Source: Candidatus Faecalibacterium faecigallinarum | Lineage (GTDB): Bacteria; Bacillota; Clostridia; Oscillospirales; Ruminococcaceae | Direction: 5' to 3' | DNA length: 40,112 nt | Assembly (NCBI GenBank): GCA_019119685.1 | Contig: DWWN01000013.1 | Span: forward strand, 1 to 40,112 | Notes under the pieces: model-generated | What the model was told of the DNA's origin: nothing | Seen by the model: the letters and a program-made list of their open reading frames with translations, nothing else | Databases searched by the model: none | Shown here: in pieces, positions 6,063 to 18,381 of the stretch | Numbering within the stretch: the stretch's first letter is position 1 | Layout: each line of letters starts with the position of its first letter | Program-made: the position numbers and the translations under genes

Positions 6063-7183
6063 CCGGCCCCTGTAAAAAGGGAGGCCAGGGCGTTGGCGGC
6101 CAGCTGCCCGGCGTAGAGGGCCTCGTTGAGGTTGTTGCCGTGGGTGCCGATCTCGATCAGCAGGCTGCCGGTGGTCAGGTCCTGGTTGTAGAACCGGTAG
6201 CTGAACAGGACCGGCCGGGTAAAGCCGGGGTACATCCCTTCCATGGCCCCCTCCCAGGCGGCGGCAAAGCGCAGGTTCTGCCGCCAGTTGGGCAGGGAGA
6301 CGGTGGACCCGTTGTCGCACCCGCAGATCAGCATGACCTGGGCGGCCTTGCGGCCGTTCACCTCCGCCACCGGGGCCACGCGGGTGCCGTCCTCCTTTTC
6401 GATGGCGTCCCGGTGGACGTCCAGCACCACCTTGATGCTGGGGTACTGGGCCAGGTACTGCTGGACCACCGCCCGGCTGTTGGCATAGCTGCCGGTGTAG
6501 CTGGGGTAGTCGTTCAGCGTCTCGTCGTGGAGGGTGTGGATGCCGGCGGCGTTGAGGGTGTCGGCCATGACGGCCCCCACTGCGCACATATTGGCGGCCC
6601 GGTCGGTGGTGCGGGCCCCGTCCCCCGGCAGGAACCACAGCCCTTCGGCGGGGCGGTAGCACTCGGTGGCGTGGGTGTGCATGATGAGCACCTGGGGCTC
6701 GGGGCTGTTCAGCTCGATGGCAAAGGGCAGAGGGTTCTGGACTTCAGCCGCCACCTCGGCGGCGGAAACGCTGGTGTTGTTCTTGATGGTGCCGGCGGTG
6801 CAGGCGATGTACTTTTCGCCGCTGCCCTGCCCGTAGGAGGTCTCGGTCACGGCGCCGGCGTCGGCGGGCTTGTCGGCGTCGGTCAGCAGGGGGACCAGAT
6901 ACCGCTCGATGGCGGTGGAGTCGAGCGCGGGCGCGGGCGCTGTGGAGGAGGCCGGGGCTTCGCCGGCGCTGTCGGCGGCGGGGGCCTCCCCTGCCGCCTG
7001 CCTGCCCCATTCCAGGGCGGTGCGCAGGGCGGGCAGAGGGCCCACCAGCGCCCCGGCCAAAGCCAGCGCCGGGCCCCGGCCCCAGATGGTCAGGGCCAGC
7101 ATCACCGCCGCCGCAGCCAGGGCCGCCCGGCCTGTCCCCGGGCCGGCCCGGCTTGGCTTTGCCTGCCTGTGCTCCTGCTGCAT
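6059..7183 (-). CDS. spoIIP: Stage II sporulation protein P (peptidoglycan hydrolase)
   Basis: 374 residues. In spore formers SpoIIP works with SpoIID and SpoIIM to thin septal peptidoglycan during engulfment, using amidase and endopeptidase activity. A basic N-terminus and one membrane segment (about 22-50) lead to an Ala/Pro-rich linker, then the SpoIIP domain (about 150-370) with MHTHATECY, LDVHRD and LLIEIGTHGNNLNEA, which supply the zinc and catalytic residues. ATG 7183 follows a GGGGGCGGG site; the frame is open a few codons further upstream. It lies 62 bases after gpr on the same strand, the usual gpr-spoIIP operon. Confidence 0.93.
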   Translation of the reverse strand: MQQEHRQAKPSRAGPGTGRAALAAAAVMLALTIWGRGPALALAGALVGPLPALRTALEWGRQAAGEAPAADSAGEAPASSTAPAPALDSTAIERYLVPLLTDADKPADAGAVTETSYGQGSGEKYIACTAGTIKNNTSVSAAEVAAEVQNPLPFAIELNSPEPQVLIMHTHATECYRPAEGLWFLPGDGARTTDRAANMCAVGAVMADTLNAAGIHTLHDETLNDYPSYTGSYANSRAVVQQYLAQYPSIKVVLDVHRDAIEKEDGTRVAPVAEVNGRKAAQVMLICGCDNGSTVSLPNWRQNLRFAAAWEGAMEGMYPGFTRPVLFSYRFYNQDLTTGSLLIEIGTHGNNLNEALYAGQLAANALASLFTGAG

Positions 7184-7245
7184 CCGCCCGCCCCCTTTCC
7201 CGTGGTGATACACACCATTTGTATGCGGGGCGGGGAGGATCTATG

Positions 7246-8031
7246 TCACTGGCTGGCCAGCCAGCACAGCTGGTTGACGGTCAGGCGGGGCTGCAGGGCC
7301 CGGTTGATGGCCGCCCCCAGCAGGGCCGCCCCGTGGGCGATGACGCTGTCCAGCGCGCGGGGCGCGACCACCAGGTCCCGGCCTTCGGCGGCCTCCATCA
7401 GGGTGGGGATGCCCGCCGCGATGACCGGCAGACCCAGCCCGGCGGCGTCCAGATGGCGGCCGCTGCGGGGCTGGGCCGGCGCAAGCCCGGTGTCGGACAG
7501 CTGGATGGTGCGGCCCAGCCGCTCGGGCTCGGCGGTGCACAGGCTGTCCACGCAGAGGAGGGCCGCGGGCCGCACCGCCTCCACCAGGGCCGCGGCCAAA
7601 GCCTGCAGGCTGATGCCCGCCGCCTGGGACACCCCCGGCGCCACCGCCGCCACCGGCCGGATGCCCCGCACCGGCAGGACGTGGCCCATCGTGACCAGGA
7701 TGTGCTGGACGGTGCGGGGGCCCAGGGCGTCGGCCGTCACCCGGCGGTTGCCCACCCCCAGCACCAGCACCGGCCCGGCCGGGGGCAGCAGGGCGGCCAG
7801 CTCGGCCGCCGCCGTCTCGATGAGGGAGACATCCCGCTCGTCCAGCAAATGGAGGCTGGGGGTCTCCAGTGTGACGTAGCGGCCCCGCGGCCGGGCCAGG
7901 CCGTCCCGGGCCACCTCCACCCGGGTGATGGTCACCCCGCCCCGCCGGACCGACGCCAGCCGCACCCCGCCGTCGCCGCCGGCCTCCTGTCCGGAGCCGA
8001 AAAGCTCGTCCGCCATGTCTGTATAGCGCAT
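7246..8031 (-). CDS. gpr: Spore germination protease GPR (short form)
   Basis: 261 residues. GPR degrades small acid-soluble spore proteins at germination. It matches the family at RYTDMADEL (propeptide cleavage-like site), VLGVGNRRVTADALGP and RTIQLSDTGLAP, and in the block LGLPVIAAGIPT. It is clearly shorter than the roughly 370-residue Bacillus enzyme (recalled), with loops and C-terminus trimmed. The start ATG has AAAGGAGG seven to nine bases upstream. It is first in an operon with spoIIP and divergent from rpsT. I found no convincing forespore promoter in the AT-rich gap. Confidence 0.9.
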   Translation of the reverse strand: MRYTDMADELFGSGQEAGGDGGVRLASVRRGGVTITRVEVARDGLARPRGRYVTLETPSLHLLDERDVSLIETAAAELAALLPPAGPVLVLGVGNRRVTADALGPRTVQHILVTMGHVLPVRGIRPVAAVAPGVSQAAGISLQALAAALVEAVRPAALLCVDSLCTAEPERLGRTIQLSDTGLAPAQPRSGRHLDAAGLGLPVIAAGIPTLMEAAEGRDLVVAPRALDSVIAHGAALLGAAINRALQPRLTVNQLCWLASQ

Positions 8032-12580: not shown

Positions 12581-13999
12581 TTGATCTTCAGCTCGATCAT
12601 CTTCCTGTTCCACTTTCTGCCCTTCACCCTGGCGGCCTATTATATCGCCCCGCCCAAGGCAAAGAACACCGTCCTGTTCATCTGCAGCCTGGTGTTCTAC
12701 TGCTGGGGCGAGGTCCGGTTTTTCCCGGTGATGCTGGCCCTCATCCTCATCAATTACCTGTGCGGCCTGGCCATCGCCCATTTTGAGGGCAGGCCGGGGC
12801 TGCGCCGGCTGTTTTTGGGGCTGGCCCTGGTGGGCAGCCTGGGGATGCTGTTCTATTTCAAGTACGCAAATTTTGTCCTGGAGAGCGCCAACGCCCTGCT
12901 GGGGACAAGCTTTGCCCCCATCGAGGGGATCAGCGTCCTGCCGCTGGGCATCAGCTTTTACACCTTCCAGACCCTTTCCTACACCATCGACGTCTACCGC
13001 CGCGATGTGGCGTCGGAAAAGAACATCATCGACTTCGGGGCCTATGTGGTCATGTTCCCGCAGCTGATCGCCGGCCCCATCGTCAAATACCGCGACGTGG
13101 CGGCCCAGCTGCACGTCTACAAGCACCGCTACAACATCGCCCAGATCGAGGAGGGCATGACCATCTTCACCTTCGGCCTGGCCAAAAAAGTGCTGCTGGC
13201 CGACGCGGTGGGCGCCCTCTGGACCGACATCATCGGGGTGGCGGACGACGCTTCCATCACCTTTGTGGGGCTGGCAAACGCCTCCACCGGGCTGGTGTGG
13301 CTGGGCATCCTGGCCTACAGTTTCCAGCTGTACTTCGACTTTTCGGGCTATTCCATGATGGCCATCGGCATGGGCAAGATGATGGGCTTCGAGTTCCCCC
13401 AGAACTTCAACTACCCGTATATCTCGGCTTCCATCACCGAGTTCTGGCGCCGCTGGCACATGACGCTGTCCAGCTGGTTCCGGGAGTACGTCTATATCCC
13501 CCTGGGCGGCAACCGCAGGGGCCTCAAGCGCCAGATCTTCAACCTGTTCATCGTCGAGCTGCTGACCGGCATCTGGCACGGCGCCGACTGGAATTTCATC
13601 TGCTGGGGCCTGTATTACTTTGTGCTGCTGGCGGTGGAAAAGCTGTTCCTGCTCAAGCACCTGCAGAAAGGCCGGGTCTGGCCCCACCTGTACACCCTGT
13701 TTTTTGTGGTGGTGGGCTGGGCCATGTTCGTGGGCAACGACCCCGGCGTCCAGTTCGGGCTGCTGTTCCAGAAGCTGTTCGTCCCCAGCGGCGGCGTTTC
13801 GGCCCTGTATTTCCTGCGGAATTACGGCGTGCTGCTGATCGTCTCTTTCATCTGCTGCACCCCGCTGATCGAAAAGGTCTGGGACGTGCTGCGGCGGCGC
13901 AGCTGGAGCCGCGTGCTGACGGTGGGCGTGCTGCTGGTGATCTCGACGGCCTACGTGGTAGGCAGCACCAACAGCCCGTTCCTGTATTTTAACTTTTAA
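12581..13999 (+). CDS. MBOAT-family O-acyltransferase
   Basis: 472 residues with about ten membrane segments. YTIDVYRRD and the VMFPQLIAGPIVKY block are typical of AlgI/DltB/PatA-like membrane O-acyltransferases. The invariant histidine is H333 in GIWHGADWN. These enzymes pass acyl groups across the membrane to a surface acceptor, working with a partner such as AlgJ or a DHHW protein. The start is TTG 12581, eight bases after AAGGAG; no ATG fits. The following DHHW gene is the expected partner. The acceptor is unknown and could be a wall polymer, a polysaccharide or, speculatively, the secreted proteins next door. Confidence 0.92.
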   Translation: MIFSSIIFLFHFLPFTLAAYYIAPPKAKNTVLFICSLVFYCWGEVRFFPVMLALILINYLCGLAIAHFEGRPGLRRLFLGLALVGSLGMLFYFKYANFVLESANALLGTSFAPIEGISVLPLGISFYTFQTLSYTIDVYRRDVASEKNIIDFGAYVVMFPQLIAGPIVKYRDVAAQLHVYKHRYNIAQIEEGMTIFTFGLAKKVLLADAVGALWTDIIGVADDASITFVGLANASTGLVWLGILAYSFQLYFDFSGYSMMAIGMGKMMGFEFPQNFNYPYISASITEFWRRWHMTLSSWFREYVYIPLGGNRRGLKRQIFNLFIVELLTGIWHGADWNFICWGLYYFVLLAVEKLFLLKHLQKGRVWPHLYTLFFVVVGWAMFVGNDPGVQFGLLFQKLFVPSGGVSALYFLRNYGVLLIVSFICCTPLIEKVWDVLRRRSWSRVLTVGVLLVISTAYVVGSTNSPFLYFNF

Positions 14000-14073: not shown

Positions 14074-15255
14074 ATGCAGCAGCATAAGCGCAGACGAAAA
14101 GGCGGGCTGATCCACTACCCGGTGCTGATCCTGTTCAGCGTCTTTTTTGTGGGGATGTTTCTGCTGGACTGCGTCACCCCCGACCGCACGGTCAGCGAGC
14201 TGGAAAACACCACCCTGACCCAGCGCCCCAAAGTGACCGCGCAAATCTTGTCCTCTGCGGGGCTGAACCGGTTCTTCGACGATTACACCCAGTATACGAA
14301 AGACCAGATCCCCGGCCGCGACGCCTGGATCAGCCTGCAGAGCTTTGTGGAGACGGCTCTGCTCCAGAAGACCCAGAGCGGTGGCATCCTGCTGGGGGAT
14401 AAAGGTCAGATGTTTGACCGCACCTACGGCCTGGTCTCCAGCGAGGAGCGCACCCTGCCGCGCAACATTGCAGCGGTGGCTTCGCTGGCGGCCCGCTGTC
14501 CCGGCAAGGTGTATGTGATGGTGGCCCCGGCGGCCTCCTCCATTTACCCCGAGCGGGTGCCGGCCCACGCCCCCCTGCTGCAGGAGGAGAGCTATCTTGG
14601 CCAGATCCAGGCGGCGGTGGAACAAGCCGGCGGCGTCTACCTGCCGCTGGAAGACGCCCTGTCCGCCCACAAGGACGAGTATATCTACTACCGCACCGAC
14701 CACCACTGGACCACCCAGGGGGCCTATTACGCCTACAGCGAGCTGTGCGGCGCTTTGGGCCTCGAACCCTTTGACCGGGCGGCGCACACCGCGGTGGATG
14801 TGCCCGACTTTTACGGCACCTTCTATTCCCGCGCCCGCACCTGGAATGCCCAGCCCGACACCCTGACCTATTACGATCTGGACAACCCCCTGACCATTTA
14901 CACCGTCACCGGGCCCGGGATGCCCACGGAAGGGCAGACCACCGGCCTGTACGACCTGGACAAGCTGGACGTGTACGACAAGTACGCGGCGTTCCTCCAC
15001 GGCAACAACGGCCTGAGCCGGGTGGAGGGGGACGGCGAGGGCCGCATCCTGGTCATCAAGGACAGCTACGCCAACTCGTTCGTCCCCTTCCTGACGGCCA
15101 ACTACGCCCAGATCGACGTGGTGGACCTGCGCAACTACAACTACGGCCTGGACGGCCTGATCGCCGAAAACGGCTACGACCAGATCCTGGTGCTCTACAG
15201 CTTTGACAGCTTCAAGAGCGACCCCTACCTCTACCGGGCCGGCATCGAGGGATAA
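14074..15255 (+). CDS. DHHW-family extracytoplasmic partner of the MBOAT enzyme
   Basis: 393 residues. One N-terminal membrane segment (about 12-33) is followed by an extracellular SGNH/AlgX-like domain. The family motif DHHW is at 209-212 (YRTDHHWTTQGAYY), and VIKDSYANSFVPFL supplies the Ser-containing block near the C-terminus. These proteins act with MBOAT transferases in O-acylation of surface polymers (known for AlgJ/AlgX and PatB-like partners). Start ATG has AAGGAGG six to eight bases upstream. The 74-base gap to the MBOAT gene suggests one transcript, ending at the hairpin at 15254-15280. Confidence 0.9.
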   Translation: MQQHKRRRKGGLIHYPVLILFSVFFVGMFLLDCVTPDRTVSELENTTLTQRPKVTAQILSSAGLNRFFDDYTQYTKDQIPGRDAWISLQSFVETALLQKTQSGGILLGDKGQMFDRTYGLVSSEERTLPRNIAAVASLAARCPGKVYVMVAPAASSIYPERVPAHAPLLQEESYLGQIQAAVEQAGGVYLPLEDALSAHKDEYIYYRTDHHWTTQGAYYAYSELCGALGLEPFDRAAHTAVDVPDFYGTFYSRARTWNAQPDTLTYYDLDNPLTIYTVTGPGMPTEGQTTGLYDLDKLDVYDKYAAFLHGNNGLSRVEGDGEGRILVIKDSYANSFVPFLTANYAQIDVVDLRNYNYGLDGLIAENGYDQILVLYSFDSFKSDPYLYRAGIEG

Positions 15256-15280
15256 AAGCGGAAAACGGGCATCCGCTTTT
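15254..15280 (+). terminator. Terminator-like hairpin after the DHHW gene
   Basis: The stem AAAAGCGGA / TCCGCTTTT begins at the DHHW stop codon. The T-run is short. It separates the acylation genes from the promoter of the peptide array. Confidence 0.55.
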
Positions 15281-15344
15281 CACAAAATTGCAGGGCGATT
15301 TCTATAAAAGCTGCTCAAATTTCGCACTATTTTCAAGGAAACTA

Positions 15345-15373
15345 TTGAGCATTCTCTCACAATGTGGTAAAAT
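15345..15373 (+). promoter_or_regulatory. Promoter of the double-glycine peptide array
   Basis: -35 TTGAGC (15345-15350), 17-base spacer, -10 TAAAAT (15368-15373). Upstream an ACTATT motif is repeated (15326 and 15341) and GCTCAA/TTGAGC form an inverted pair (15314-15319 and 15345-15350), so a regulator site is possible. The surrounding DNA is AT-rich compared with the window. Confidence 0.7.
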
Positions 15374-15460
15374 GAAGCTGAGCCCTAGGAGATTGTGGGG
15401 GAATCTGTTTTGCGGGCGGGCCGGCGGGCTGCGCCCTGATTGGCAAAGGAGATTTTACCT

Positions 15461-15853
15461 ATGAAAGACACCATTCGTTATCCCGAACATTTCGCCCCCA
15501 TCGCGGAGGAGGAAATGGTCTACCTGGACGGCGGCAACGTGCTCGACAACGTCGGCAATGCCATTGACGGCGCTGTAGATACCGCCACATCCGCCCTGAA
15601 CGTTCTGGGCATTGTCGCCACTGTGGTGGGCGTCTGTGTGCTTGGTTCCAGCTATATCTGGGGCATCCGGCAGGCCGATGCCTGGCTGGACAACAACGCT
15701 GAGGGCAACATCTTCACCATTCTGGGCAGAGCCATCGACGACCTGGGCGCAGATATGTCCCAGTCCCTCTCCCACTTCACCCGCGACCTGGTAGCCACCA
15801 TCACGGTGGTGGGCCTGTGGCCGCTGAGCATCCCGCTGCTGATCCTTGGCTGA
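15461..15853 (+). CDS. Double-glycine-leader secreted protein 1 (MAM-like leader)
   Basis: 130 residues from ATG 15461, nine bases after AAAGGAG; an upstream TTG in frame has no such site. Residues 1-25 are a leader ending EEEMVYLDGG, with hydrophobic residues at -4 (L), -7 (M), -12 (I) and -15 (F) from the cut, the pattern read by C39-peptidase ABC exporters. The predicted mature part (26-130) has two hydrophobic segments (about 45-69 and 110-129) joined by a polar loop with WLD (75-77) and a single Cys 59. First gene of three related ones behind the promoter at 15345. Function is unknown; it could be a bacteriocin-like peptide or a MAM-type effector. No exporter gene is visible in the window. 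Confidence 0.85.
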   Translation: MKDTIRYPEHFAPIAEEEMVYLDGGNVLDNVGNAIDGAVDTATSALNVLGIVATVVGVCVLGSSYIWGIRQADAWLDNNAEGNIFTILGRAIDDLGADMSQSLSHFTRDLVATITVVGLWPLSIPLLILG

Positions 15854-15964
15854 TTTATTTTTGGTTGCAAACGGTTGCATTTCTGCGCGGATCTCATCCA
15901 CGTGCAGGTTGGAATGTATCCGTTCTCAATAAACCTAATCTTTGCAAAGAAAAGGAGCATTATT

Positions 15965-16357
15965 ATGGAAATGACCGTTCGTATGCCCGCTAATTATAAT
16001 GTTCTGAGCGAGAATGAAATGACCTACACCACTGGCGGTGCTTGGACCGACTGGTATGCCGGCCTCAACGTTGCTGGTGATGTGGTAGGCGCAGTCATGA
16101 CCGGCGTCATGATCGTCAACTGGCTGGATATGCTGGGCGGCGCCCGCAACTGGGTCGCAGCCAACAAGACCAATGATCTGGTCACCAACCTCGAGAATGG
16201 CGTCAAGGCCTGGGTCGATTACACCAGTGCTTCGGCTTGGAATGCTGTCCGCAGCATCGCCGCAACCATCACTGCAGTTGGCGGCACCGTTCTGATCGGC
16301 GGCATCGGCATCCCCTATGGCCTGATCGGTACTGCTGCAGCTCTCCTCACTGCTTAA
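15965..16357 (+). CDS. Double-glycine-leader secreted protein 2 (MAM-like leader)
   Basis: 130 residues, exactly the length of protein 1. The leader (1-25) contains MPANYNVLSENEMTYTTGG. From memory the F. prausnitzii anti-inflammatory protein MAM has MPANYSVIAENEMTYVNGG, 14 of 19 identical. Spacing fits C39 processing (T -4, M -7, L -12, Y -15). The mature part is Trp-, Ala- and Gly-rich with hydrophobic segments at about 37-55 and 97-129, a WLD motif (53-55) and no Cys. ATG 15965 follows AAAGGAG. The 111-base gap from gene 1 shows no clear terminator, so co-transcription is likely. Codons (CGT, GTT, GGT) look like those of highly expressed genes. Confidence 0.88.
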   Translation: MEMTVRMPANYNVLSENEMTYTTGGAWTDWYAGLNVAGDVVGAVMTGVMIVNWLDMLGGARNWVAANKTNDLVTNLENGVKAWVDYTSASAWNAVRSIAATITAVGGTVLIGGIGIPYGLIGTAAALLTA

Positions 16358-16385
16358 TGTAGGAGGGCCTACCAAAGACCTACTT

Positions 16386-16431
16386 AGGCGGCGGTCTTCT
16401 GCCCTGCGGGAGAAGGCTGCCGCCTTCTTTT
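16386..16431 (+). terminator. Terminator after peptide gene 2
   Basis: AGGCGGC..GCCGCCT stem with an inner stem, then TCTTTTAT. The gap 16358-16508 otherwise holds only the leader of gene 3. Confidence 0.75.
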
Positions 16432-16508
16432 ATAATAGGTGCCTGCGGAATTAAACAGCCCGGCGATGGGTCTGTTTAAGATAATTTTTGCGGAAAAGGA
16501 GTATTACT

Positions 16509-16835
16509 ATGGAAATGACCGTTCGTATGCCGGCCAATTATAACCTGCTGGCCGAAGAAGAAATGACCTATACCACCGGTGGTGCGACCGCCGTAGAAGC
16601 TCTGTGCGCATGGATTGTTCCTTTCTATGGTTGGTATAAGGCTTCCACCGATATCCGTGATTACCGTCGGAAAAATCCTGATAGCTGGTTGGATACTGGT
16701 CTGGATTATTTTGTCAACCATATGGGAAGCAATGTTACGAATATGCTGTATGATATTGCTTGCGCTTCGTGGTTTGTCTCTATCTGCCTGACTGGTATTG
16801 GCTTGGTTCCGACGGCTTTGATTATTTTCTCTTAA
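16509..16835 (+). CDS. Double-glycine-leader secreted protein 3 (MAM-like leader)
   Basis: 108 residues from ATG 16509 after AAAAGGAG. Its 25-residue leader is nearly identical to that of protein 2, in protein and in DNA (shared ribosome binding site context included), while the mature 83 residues differ strongly. The layout is kept: hydrophobic segment about 28-44, polar loop with PDSWLD (57-62), C-terminal hydrophobic segment about 83-107. Cysteines at 33, 85 and 93. Base composition is the most AT-rich of the three. The conserved leader with divergent cargo suggests leader duplication or cassette exchange. Function unknown. Confidence 0.85.
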   Translation: MEMTVRMPANYNLLAEEEMTYTTGGATAVEALCAWIVPFYGWYKASTDIRDYRRKNPDSWLDTGLDYFVNHMGSNVTNMLYDIACASWFVSICLTGIGLVPTALIIFS

Positions 16836-16858
16836 GAGAGATGAATTAAAATTTAATT

Positions 16859-16906
16859 AGGCGGCGGCTTCCCCCATATACGGGGCGGGCCGCCGCCCAT
16901 TTTTTG
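16859..16906 (+). terminator. Terminator after peptide gene 3
   Basis: The stem GGCGGCGGC / GCCGCCGCC followed by CATTTTTTG. It closes the three-gene array. Confidence 0.9.
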
Positions 16907-17108
16907 CTCCCCTCTCAGGCGCTTCGCGCCAGCTCTCCCGGAGGGAGAGCCAAGTACACGCCCGTGGATAGAGAAAAACTTTGCGGTAATACGATGTTTT
17001 TGCAGCTTTACCTTACCGTGCAGTTTGCTATGATGGACGCAGGTACACTTGGCTCCCCCCGCGGGGGAGCTGGCACAGGGTGCGCAAGCGCCCTGTGACT
17101 GAGAGGGT
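16907..17108 (+). repeat. Dispersed palindromic element, family A copy 2
   Basis: The left hairpin block (GGCGCTTCGCGCC then CTCTCCCGGAGGGAGAG) and right hairpin block (CTCCCCCCGCGGGGGAG then CACAGGG..CCCTGTG) face each other around a centre with GGTAA...TTACC. The blocks match those at 133-348 in the opposite orientation. This copy lacks the extra 140-bp arms of copy 1. No coding potential. Confidence 0.75.
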
Positions 17109-17168
17109 ATAAAAAGGGCCCCGAGAGCCTTGACGGCTTCCGGGGCCTTTTGCTGTGTTTATGCTGCT

Positions 17169-18347
17169 TTATTTATTGTTGGTGTTGAGGATGTCTTTCA
17201 GCTTGCGAAAAAATCCCTTGCGCTTTTCGTAGTTGTCGTCTTTGAGGGTGCCCTCGAATTTTTTCAGGGCCTCGCGCTGGGTCTTGTTCAGCTTTTTGGG
17301 GATCTCGACGTCGCACTTGACGTACATGTCGCCGCGGCCGCGGCCGTTCAGATACTGGATACCCTTGCCGCGCAGGCGGAAGGTGGTGCCGCTCTGGGTG
17401 CCCTCGGGCAGGGTGTATTCCACCTTGCCGTCGATGGTGGGGACGGTGATGTTGTCGCCCAGCACCGCCTGGCTGAAGGTGATGGGGATGGTGACCCAGA
17501 CGTCGTAGCCGTCCCGCTGGAACAGCTCGTCGGGCCGCACCGTGACCATGACGATCACATCGCCGGCGGGGCCGCCGTTGGCGCCGGCGTCGCCCATGCC
17601 CCGCAGAGCAAAGCTCTGGTCGTCGTCAATGCCCATCGGGATGCTGACCTCCAGGGTCTTTTTGGTGGCCACCCGGCCGCTGCCGTGGCAGACCTTGCAG
17701 GGGTTTTTGATGATCTTGCCCTTGCCGCCGCAGCGGGTGCAGGGCTGCTGGCTCTGCATGACGCCAAAGGGGGTGCGCTGCTGCTGGATGACATAGCCGC
17801 GGCCGCCGCAGTCGGGGCAGGTCTCGGGCTGGCTGCCGGGGGCGGAGCCGCTGCCGTTGCACTCGGTGCAGGTCTGCTGCCGGGTGATGGTGATGTTCTT
17901 CTTGCAGCCGTGGACCGCCTCGTCAAAACTGAGGGTGATCCGCACCCGGATGTCCTGGCCCTTGCGGGGGGCGTTGGGGTTGGCGCGGGCGCTGCCGCCG
18001 CCGAACCCGCCAAAGCCGCCGCCGAAGATGTCCCCAAAAATGTCTCCCAGGTCCACCCCGCCAAAGCCGCCGAACCCGCCGCCTGCGCCGCCGCCCTGGC
18101 TGGCTGCGTAGTTGGGGTCTACGCCCGCAAAGCCGAACTGGTCGTAGCGCTTGCGCTTTTCAGGGTCCGACAAGACCTCGTGGGCCTCGTTGATCTCCTT
18201 GAATTTTTCCTCGGCGGTCTTGTCGCCGGGGTTGTAGTCTGGGTGGTATTTCAGCGCCAGCTTACGGTAGGCCTTCTTGATCTCCTCATCCGTGGCTGTC
18301 TTGGACACCCCCAGGACCTCGTAATAGTCACGTTTTTCCTGTGCCAT
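17169..18347 (-). CDS. dnaJ: Chaperone protein DnaJ (Hsp40)
   Basis: 392 residues. It stimulates the DnaK ATPase and delivers unfolded clients. The N-terminal J domain has YHPDYNPGD (the HPD triad). A Gly/Phe-rich linker (about 80-115) is followed by a zinc domain with four CxxCxGxG repeats ([32 protein letters not shown]) and the C-terminal substrate-binding domains. Start ATG 18347 ([14 protein letters not shown]) has AGAGGTGAG upstream. Last gene of the hrcA-grpE-dnaK-dnaJ operon. Confidence 0.97.
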
Positions 18348-18381
18348 TTCCACTCACCTCTCGCCGCCAGCTGCGCTGGCC

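Follow-up and report, generated by a model that had tools for sequence, protein, structure and literature searches.

Three tandem genes in the window, a stretch of 40,112 nucleotides from Candidatus Faecalibacterium faecigallinarum, encode small proteins (P1, P2 and P3) whose double-glycine leaders are akin to the leader of MAM. We consider it moderately probable that P1, P2 and P3 are old paralogues on the MAM export route, that is, helical envelope proteins exported beside MAM by a C39 ABC exporter (PCAT). We infer cleavage, export and an envelope location as follows. The C39 domains of the PCAT of this genome would recognise the leader and cut after its GG, and the PCAT, probably together with an HlyD adaptor, would export the helical, hydrophobic mature parts of 83–105 residues. 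After export these would stay within the cell envelope or on its surface and there accompany MAM as accessory components or as alternatives to it. Leader cutting and export are the most likely course given the leader and PCAT findings and general knowledge of PCATs, while retention of the cargos in the envelope appears most likely by analogy with MAM.

The three-gene array and its leaders

The array is located on contig C24 of a draft genome of 2.06 Mb that is 84.9% complete, and the nearest named relatives in the search were Faecalibacterium genomes. Two of these bear names that hint at chickens, namely Candidatus F. intestinigallinarum, with a match 76% identical to P2, and Candidatus F. gallistercoris. 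The sequence-only reading had described three genes of 130, 130 and 108 residues, each with a 25-residue leader ending in GG, and its coordinates and lengths proved exact. The array and its surroundings display the following features:

12581–13999, plus strand: MBOAT acyltransferase gene (Pfam PF03062), a conserved upstream neighbour by synteny
14074–15255, plus strand: DHHW/AlgX-like SGNH gene (Pfam PF14286, PF16822), a conserved upstream neighbour
15461–15853, plus strand: P1, 130 residues; leader 15461–15535, mature part 15536–15850
15461–15535, plus strand: P1 double-glycine leader, E 0.0095 against the MAM-only leader profile
15965–16357, plus strand: P2, 130 residues; leader 15965–16039, mature part 16040–16354
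15965–16039, plus strand: P2 double-glycine leader, E 3.5e-10 against the same profile
16387–16432, plus strand: probable terminator 3′ of P2, a G+C-rich inverted repeat followed by a T-rich stretch, recognised by eye and absent from the terminator scan
16509–16835, plus strand: P3, 108 residues; leader 16509–16583, mature part 16584–16832
16509–16583, plus strand: P3 double-glycine leader, E 2.6e-8 against the same profile
16883–16908, plus strand: terminator-like site 3′ of P3, from the terminator scan
17169–18353, minus strand: dnaJ, the downstream neighbour, followed by dnaK and grpE

The scan gave six terminator-like sites in the 2-kb region against 2.4 ± 1.1 expected, and Rfam at the gathering threshold gave no match in 15200–17200. 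An intergenic repeat of about 200 bp with palindromic parts lies at 16895–17115 and 136–316 of the window, with further copies at L104:4351–4547, L008:14925–15178 (in the mam/PCAT cluster) and L144:3307–3620. Pieces of it are about 70–100% identical between copies, and it looks like a MITE-type element.

The leaders of P1, P2 and P3 take the top three places among 656 stop-to-stop segments of the window in a search with the MAM-only leader profile, at the E values listed above, and the next segment follows at E 8.6. This bears out the MAM-type leader proposed for all three proteins. Eight distinct MAM leaders went into the profile, among them the leaders of this genome's own pair of mam genes, and the array sequences were left out of it. 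The P1 leader is weakly MAM-like compared with those of P2 and P3, a point counted against the export reading. The MAM start cited in the sequence-only reading, MPANYSVIAENEMTYVNGG, belongs to a gene of the present genome itself (L008:12079–12468) and is indeed identical to P2 at 14 of 19 positions. Hydrophobic residues had been claimed at four leader positions and are present at three of them, namely −7 (Met in all three proteins), −12 (Ile, Leu and Leu) and −15 (Phe, Tyr and Tyr), while position −4 is Leu in P1 alone and Thr in P2 and P3. All three leaders display the features of the PCAT-substrate leader test, which are the double glycine, Glu at −8 and hydrophobic residues at −7 and −12. 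A loose double-glycine expression is unspecific, with six matches in the window against 2.3 ± 1.6 in shuffled sequence.

Within one genome P2 and P3 share 68–89% of the 19-residue leader core and about 22% of the aligned cargo columns. Homogenisation of the leaders by gene conversion was considered and found no support: the leader-core DNA identity of P2 and P3 is 0.76 within genomes (16 arrays), and between genomes it is 0.72 across types and 0.75 (P2) and 0.70 (P3) within type.

The exporter and the distribution of leaders and arrays

A C39 ABC exporter had been predicted to lie outside the array, and the genome search found one on another contig (G000:C48). This PCAT comprises C39, ABC_membrane and ABC_tran domains (Pfam) and carries Gln8, Cys14 and His92, the residues that passages of PMC12184118 name for the F. 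duncaniae PCAT. Directly 3′ of its gene comes a pair of mam genes, encoding 129 and 127 aa, one of which begins with the MAM start cited above; an ORF without a Pfam hit, an HlyD adaptor and a Big_2 protein follow. PCAT, leader genes, Pfam-less ORF, HlyD and Big_2 recur as a conserved cluster in and outside Faecalibacterium (L008:9628–16743; L085–L088). A serine-recombinase-like gene, recognised by eye, is located a few kb before the PCAT (L008:4740–6368), near a sigma-factor-like gene (6510–7271). The count of MAM-leader genes found in the genome is six, one of them on contig C52.

Among the 31 genomes of the genus, 27 (this one included) have three to seven leader genes, 151 in total; the leader profile used for the counts in genome, genus, family and order (A3) includes leaders of this genome. 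Leaders and a full PCAT occur together in 26 genomes, neither occurs in four and leaders only in one (Fisher p = 1.6e-4, uncorrected for relatedness or shared ancestry). Genome G020 was counted as without PCAT because the C39 match there is weak and lies in a frame of 293 aa. The leader-only genome (G025, 77% complete), where no PCAT was found, is counted against the export reading, as is the fact that within the genus the array is unlinked to the PCAT locus.

At least two adjacent genes of the P1/P2/P3 family are present in 25 of the 31 genomes, so that tandem genes beside acylation genes, which the sequence-only reading had put forward as a new arrangement, turned out to be widespread. A further genome, G004, has one such gene, near a contig end, and none was found in G018, G019, G020, G024 and G026. 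The P1 type occurs in 23 of the 31 genomes (rows at E ≤ 1e-23). Across the 26 genomes the array is made up of P1-P2 (eight genomes), P1-P3 (eight), P1-P2-P3 as here (five) or P3-P3 (two), with P1-P2-P2, P3-P2-P3 and P1 alone in a single genome each. The DHHW/AlgX-like gene precedes the array in all 14 distinct neighbourhoods examined; thus, the acylation-gene context is stable and no invention of this genome. In 13 neighbourhoods the MBOAT gene in turn precedes the DHHW/AlgX-like gene, the stretch of G009 ending too early, and dnaJ is found downstream of the array in 12, being absent from the fetched stretches of G003 and G014. Genome G003 has seven leader matches, and its MAM opens with precisely the 42 residues of the peptide that has been reported from F. 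duncaniae, thus making the idea of a shared leader testable in the reference species.

Five of 396 genomes of the family, belonging to three other genera, carry MAM-type leaders, and in all five a PCAT is present on the same contig as the leaders. For four of these loci the fetched stretch was wide enough to show a single cluster of PCAT, leader genes, ORF, HlyD and Big_2, in which the PCAT is 63–66% identical to that of this genome. Against the MAM-only profile, seven of the nine non-genus leaders reach E 5.1e-5 or better, while the L087 pair misses it (0.24 and 0.29). The cargos of these leader proteins cluster with none of the genus. The search of 394 genomes of the order added one more genome, from another family, with a weaker leader match.

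Tagged proteins are present in most genomes of the genus, and MAM therefore looks like one of several cargos of one machine. A wider reading is offered tentatively, as a serious possibility that falls short of being probable. The MAM leader would be a genus-wide label, by which a PCAT-HlyD-Big_2 machine would export three to seven proteins in each genome. These would come from cargo families without mutual kinship, such as MAM, the P1/P2/P3 family and others, and would jointly form a composite, fast-changing protein coat of Faecalibacterium; the machine would be older than MAM and would carry other cargos in related genera.

Kinship, structure and selection of the mature parts

The mature parts of P1, P2 and P3 are hydrophobic and carry charges of −7, −2 and −2, and that of P1 contains two strongly hydrophobic segments. 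The three cargos are of common descent: profile comparison with hhalign gave probabilities of 97.96% for P1-P2, 96.76% for P2-P3 and 94.89% for P1-P3, with reversed controls of these pairs below 1%. In contrast, comparison with 14 MAM cargos gave 0.38, 0.34 and 0.14% for P1, P2 and P3, and the motif published for MAM, MMMPAN-x(8,11)-V-x-GG, is present in 0 of 58 P1/P2/P3-family proteins against 12 of 14 MAMs. By sequence comparison, P1, P2 and P3 are mutual paralogues whose cargo family is distinct from MAM, and their membership of MAM is rejected on account of the unrelated cargo and the absent motif. The proposal of MAM-like effectors served by a C39 exporter encoded elsewhere therefore stood as to leader type and exporter and failed as to the cargo, which has no detectable kinship to MAM in profile searches. 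A WLD motif had also been thought common to the three proteins; the triplets sit in different columns of the cargo-family alignment and thus do not constitute one shared motif.

In the cargo tree P1 is a single clade (support 96/93), and P2 and P3 need two changes each. The L026 cargo was left open by the type rule and counted as P3, and L070_P2, typed by the rule, falls with P3 in the tree on a very long branch. In all, 105 distinct leader proteins, taken from fetched loci in which the dnaJ-side array is over-represented, fall into 17 cargo clusters. The set comprises the leader matches that reach the GG end with a Met at least 17 residues before, a subset of the 151 matches. The largest clusters are P1/P2/P3 (58 proteins), MAM (14), the C52 type (11) and short proteins of 49–54 aa (six), while the remaining 16 proteins, nine of them from other genera, are spread as singles or pairs over 13 clusters. 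The short MAM-leader proteins (mature part 49–54 aa; L042, L044, L068, L096, L101 and L106) come from other Faecalibacterium genomes and are of bacteriocin size. The C52-type proteins (mature part 115–126 aa; L116, L104, L102, L123, L045, L099, L121, L043, L107, L112 and L097) may share a remote ancestry with MAM, to judge by an hhalign probability of 59% at E 9.3e-5.

In a search of 396 genomes of the family, strong matches to the cargo profile are confined to the genus, and the four weak matches elsewhere, at E 6e-5 to 4e-4, sit in frames of 592–670 aa. A search of solved structures with the cargo sequences gave E 0.19 or worse. Six of 20 members matched the Pfam family QslA, at best with E 0.0019 and 18.2 bits where the cut-off is 25, and these matches were treated as chance. 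The pooled P1/P2/P3 cargo profile resembles part of the membrane domain in a set of ten ABC exporters of our own (L144–L153) with a probability of 30% (E 5.5e-4), and the single cargos gave 18% for P2, 2.9% for P1 and 0.3% for P3, with reversed controls below 1%; the likeness is weak, and an origin of the cargo from such a domain is left as a hint.

The AlphaFold2 model of P2 is mainly helical, with a mean pLDDT of 66 and about 80 for residues 41–100, and in its comparison with the PDB none of the 13 hits was better than E 5.8, so that no fold match resulted. The P1 model (pLDDT 48) is too poor for use. The two hydrophobic segments of P1 and the predicted, mainly helical core of P2 would suit a membrane-associated protein.

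Purifying selection is seen wherever it is measurable, with dN/dS below 1 in every close-pair comparison that could be computed (P3 cargo against L010 gave no value); thus, the array genes look real, and no diversifying selection was seen. P2 evolves fast, with 40% cargo identity to its counterpart at L015. Codon adaptation (CAI z, against a background that includes some unverified frames) is 3.4 for mam1, 0.3 for P1, 0.4 for P2 and −3.9 for P3. Codon usage that is average (P1 and P2) or low (P3) lends no support to high expression of the MAM kind and suggests that P1–P3 are made in smaller amounts than MAM, which is likewise counted against the export reading.

Other explanations and comparison with known systems

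The main rival is bacteriocin action, which the sequence-only reading had named as an alternative. P1, P2 and P3 would then be unmodified class II-like bacteriocins of one, two or three components, exported by the PCAT, and the make-up of the array would vary with strain competition. A double-glycine leader, a PCAT and an HlyD adaptor are the usual bacteriocin export set, and the leader type, PCAT and HlyD found here match it. The variable make-up of the array over 26 genomes and the fast evolution of P2 also favour this explanation, as do the similarities of P2 to LcnG-beta (E 0.031) and Bacteriocin_IIc (E 0.077) in Pfam, although these matches are sub-threshold and include the leader. The best bacteriocin-family score, that of P2, is 14.8 bits against a cut-off of 29.4, and NCBIfam returned no hit for the array proteins. 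Class II bacteriocins are usually cationic, and their mature parts are shorter than those of P1, P2 and P3; the mature parts here are acidic. Furthermore, no immunity gene is evident in 15256–17168, where the other frames, judged by eye, overlap the three genes or are short with a TTG start. The presence of the array in 26 of 31 genomes, its conserved surroundings in 14 neighbourhoods and dN/dS below 1 where measurable likewise argue against this explanation, which we regard as unlikely on balance.

It is distinctly improbable that P1, P2 and P3 are host-facing immunomodulators like MAM, released by envelope turnover. The kind of leader and the probable exporter are as for MAM, whose variants differ in the degree of NF-kB inhibition (PMC8836110) and which is reported to be protective in colitis as a purified recombinant protein (PMC12797504), but the mature parts are without sequence kinship to MAM. 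A role as signalling peptides or other small secreted, pheromone-like factors is very improbable: some PCATs do export peptide pheromones (PMC8836110), yet the mature parts have 83–105 residues and are hydrophobic, the P2 model is mainly helical and no regulator or kinase gene was seen among the immediate neighbours. Least credible of all are vestigial leaders on small proteins that enter the membrane from the cytoplasmic side, for although P1 types average 2.0 transmembrane-like segments and the pooled cargo profile is weakly like ABC exporter membrane domains, the leader is better conserved than the cargo in P2 and P3 and co-occurs with the PCAT.

The reading we prefer, paralogues exported beside MAM, bears on how MAM is studied, since work on this important gut commensal treats MAM as an effector that stands alone. 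At least ten MAM clans are known in Faecalibacterium (PMC8836110; PMC12184118), and in F. duncaniae MAM is reported to exceed all other envelope proteins in abundance, with processing by a PCAT proposed (PMC12184118). The leader motif has been used to define MAM, and a strict-motif search reported 257 MAM-like proteins (PMC12184118). If the leader is common to unrelated cargos, strict MAM motif searches miss many proteins of the route, as they miss all 58 P1/P2/P3-family proteins because the published motif is absent from them. Removing the PCAT would then not be equivalent to removing MAM, and effects on envelope and host that have been attributed to MAM would need re-examination for other cargos. 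P1, P2 and P3 have no mention in the titles and abstract beginnings of open-access PubMed Central papers among the matches listed, and the main-text portions covered of PMC8836110, PMC12184118, PMC9674144 and PMC12797504 describe no non-MAM cargo that shares the MAM leader.

P1, P2 and P3 belong to the same genus as MAM, have its leader type and GG site, are of similar size with a hydrophobic cargo, and probably depend on a PCAT as it does. In contrast, their cargos are unrelated to that of MAM by profile comparison and the published motif is absent, their array lies near dnaJ-dnaK rather than at the PCAT locus where the mam genes are found, and their codon adaptation is average (P1 and P2) or low (P3). 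Similarly, they share with class II bacteriocins (LcnG-beta, PF11632; Bacteriocin_IIc, PF10439) the leader type and the kind of export machine, and differ in their sub-threshold Pfam scores, the lack of an evident immunity gene, their acidic nature and an array present in 26 of 31 genomes. The pneumococcal rtg system, described in the text covered of PMC7018657 as a multi-substrate PCAT locus, likewise employs a PCAT for double-glycine peptides. In contrast to rtg, the candidate substrates in Faecalibacterium are encoded at dispersed chromosomal sites and represent several cargo families that are unrelated to one another.
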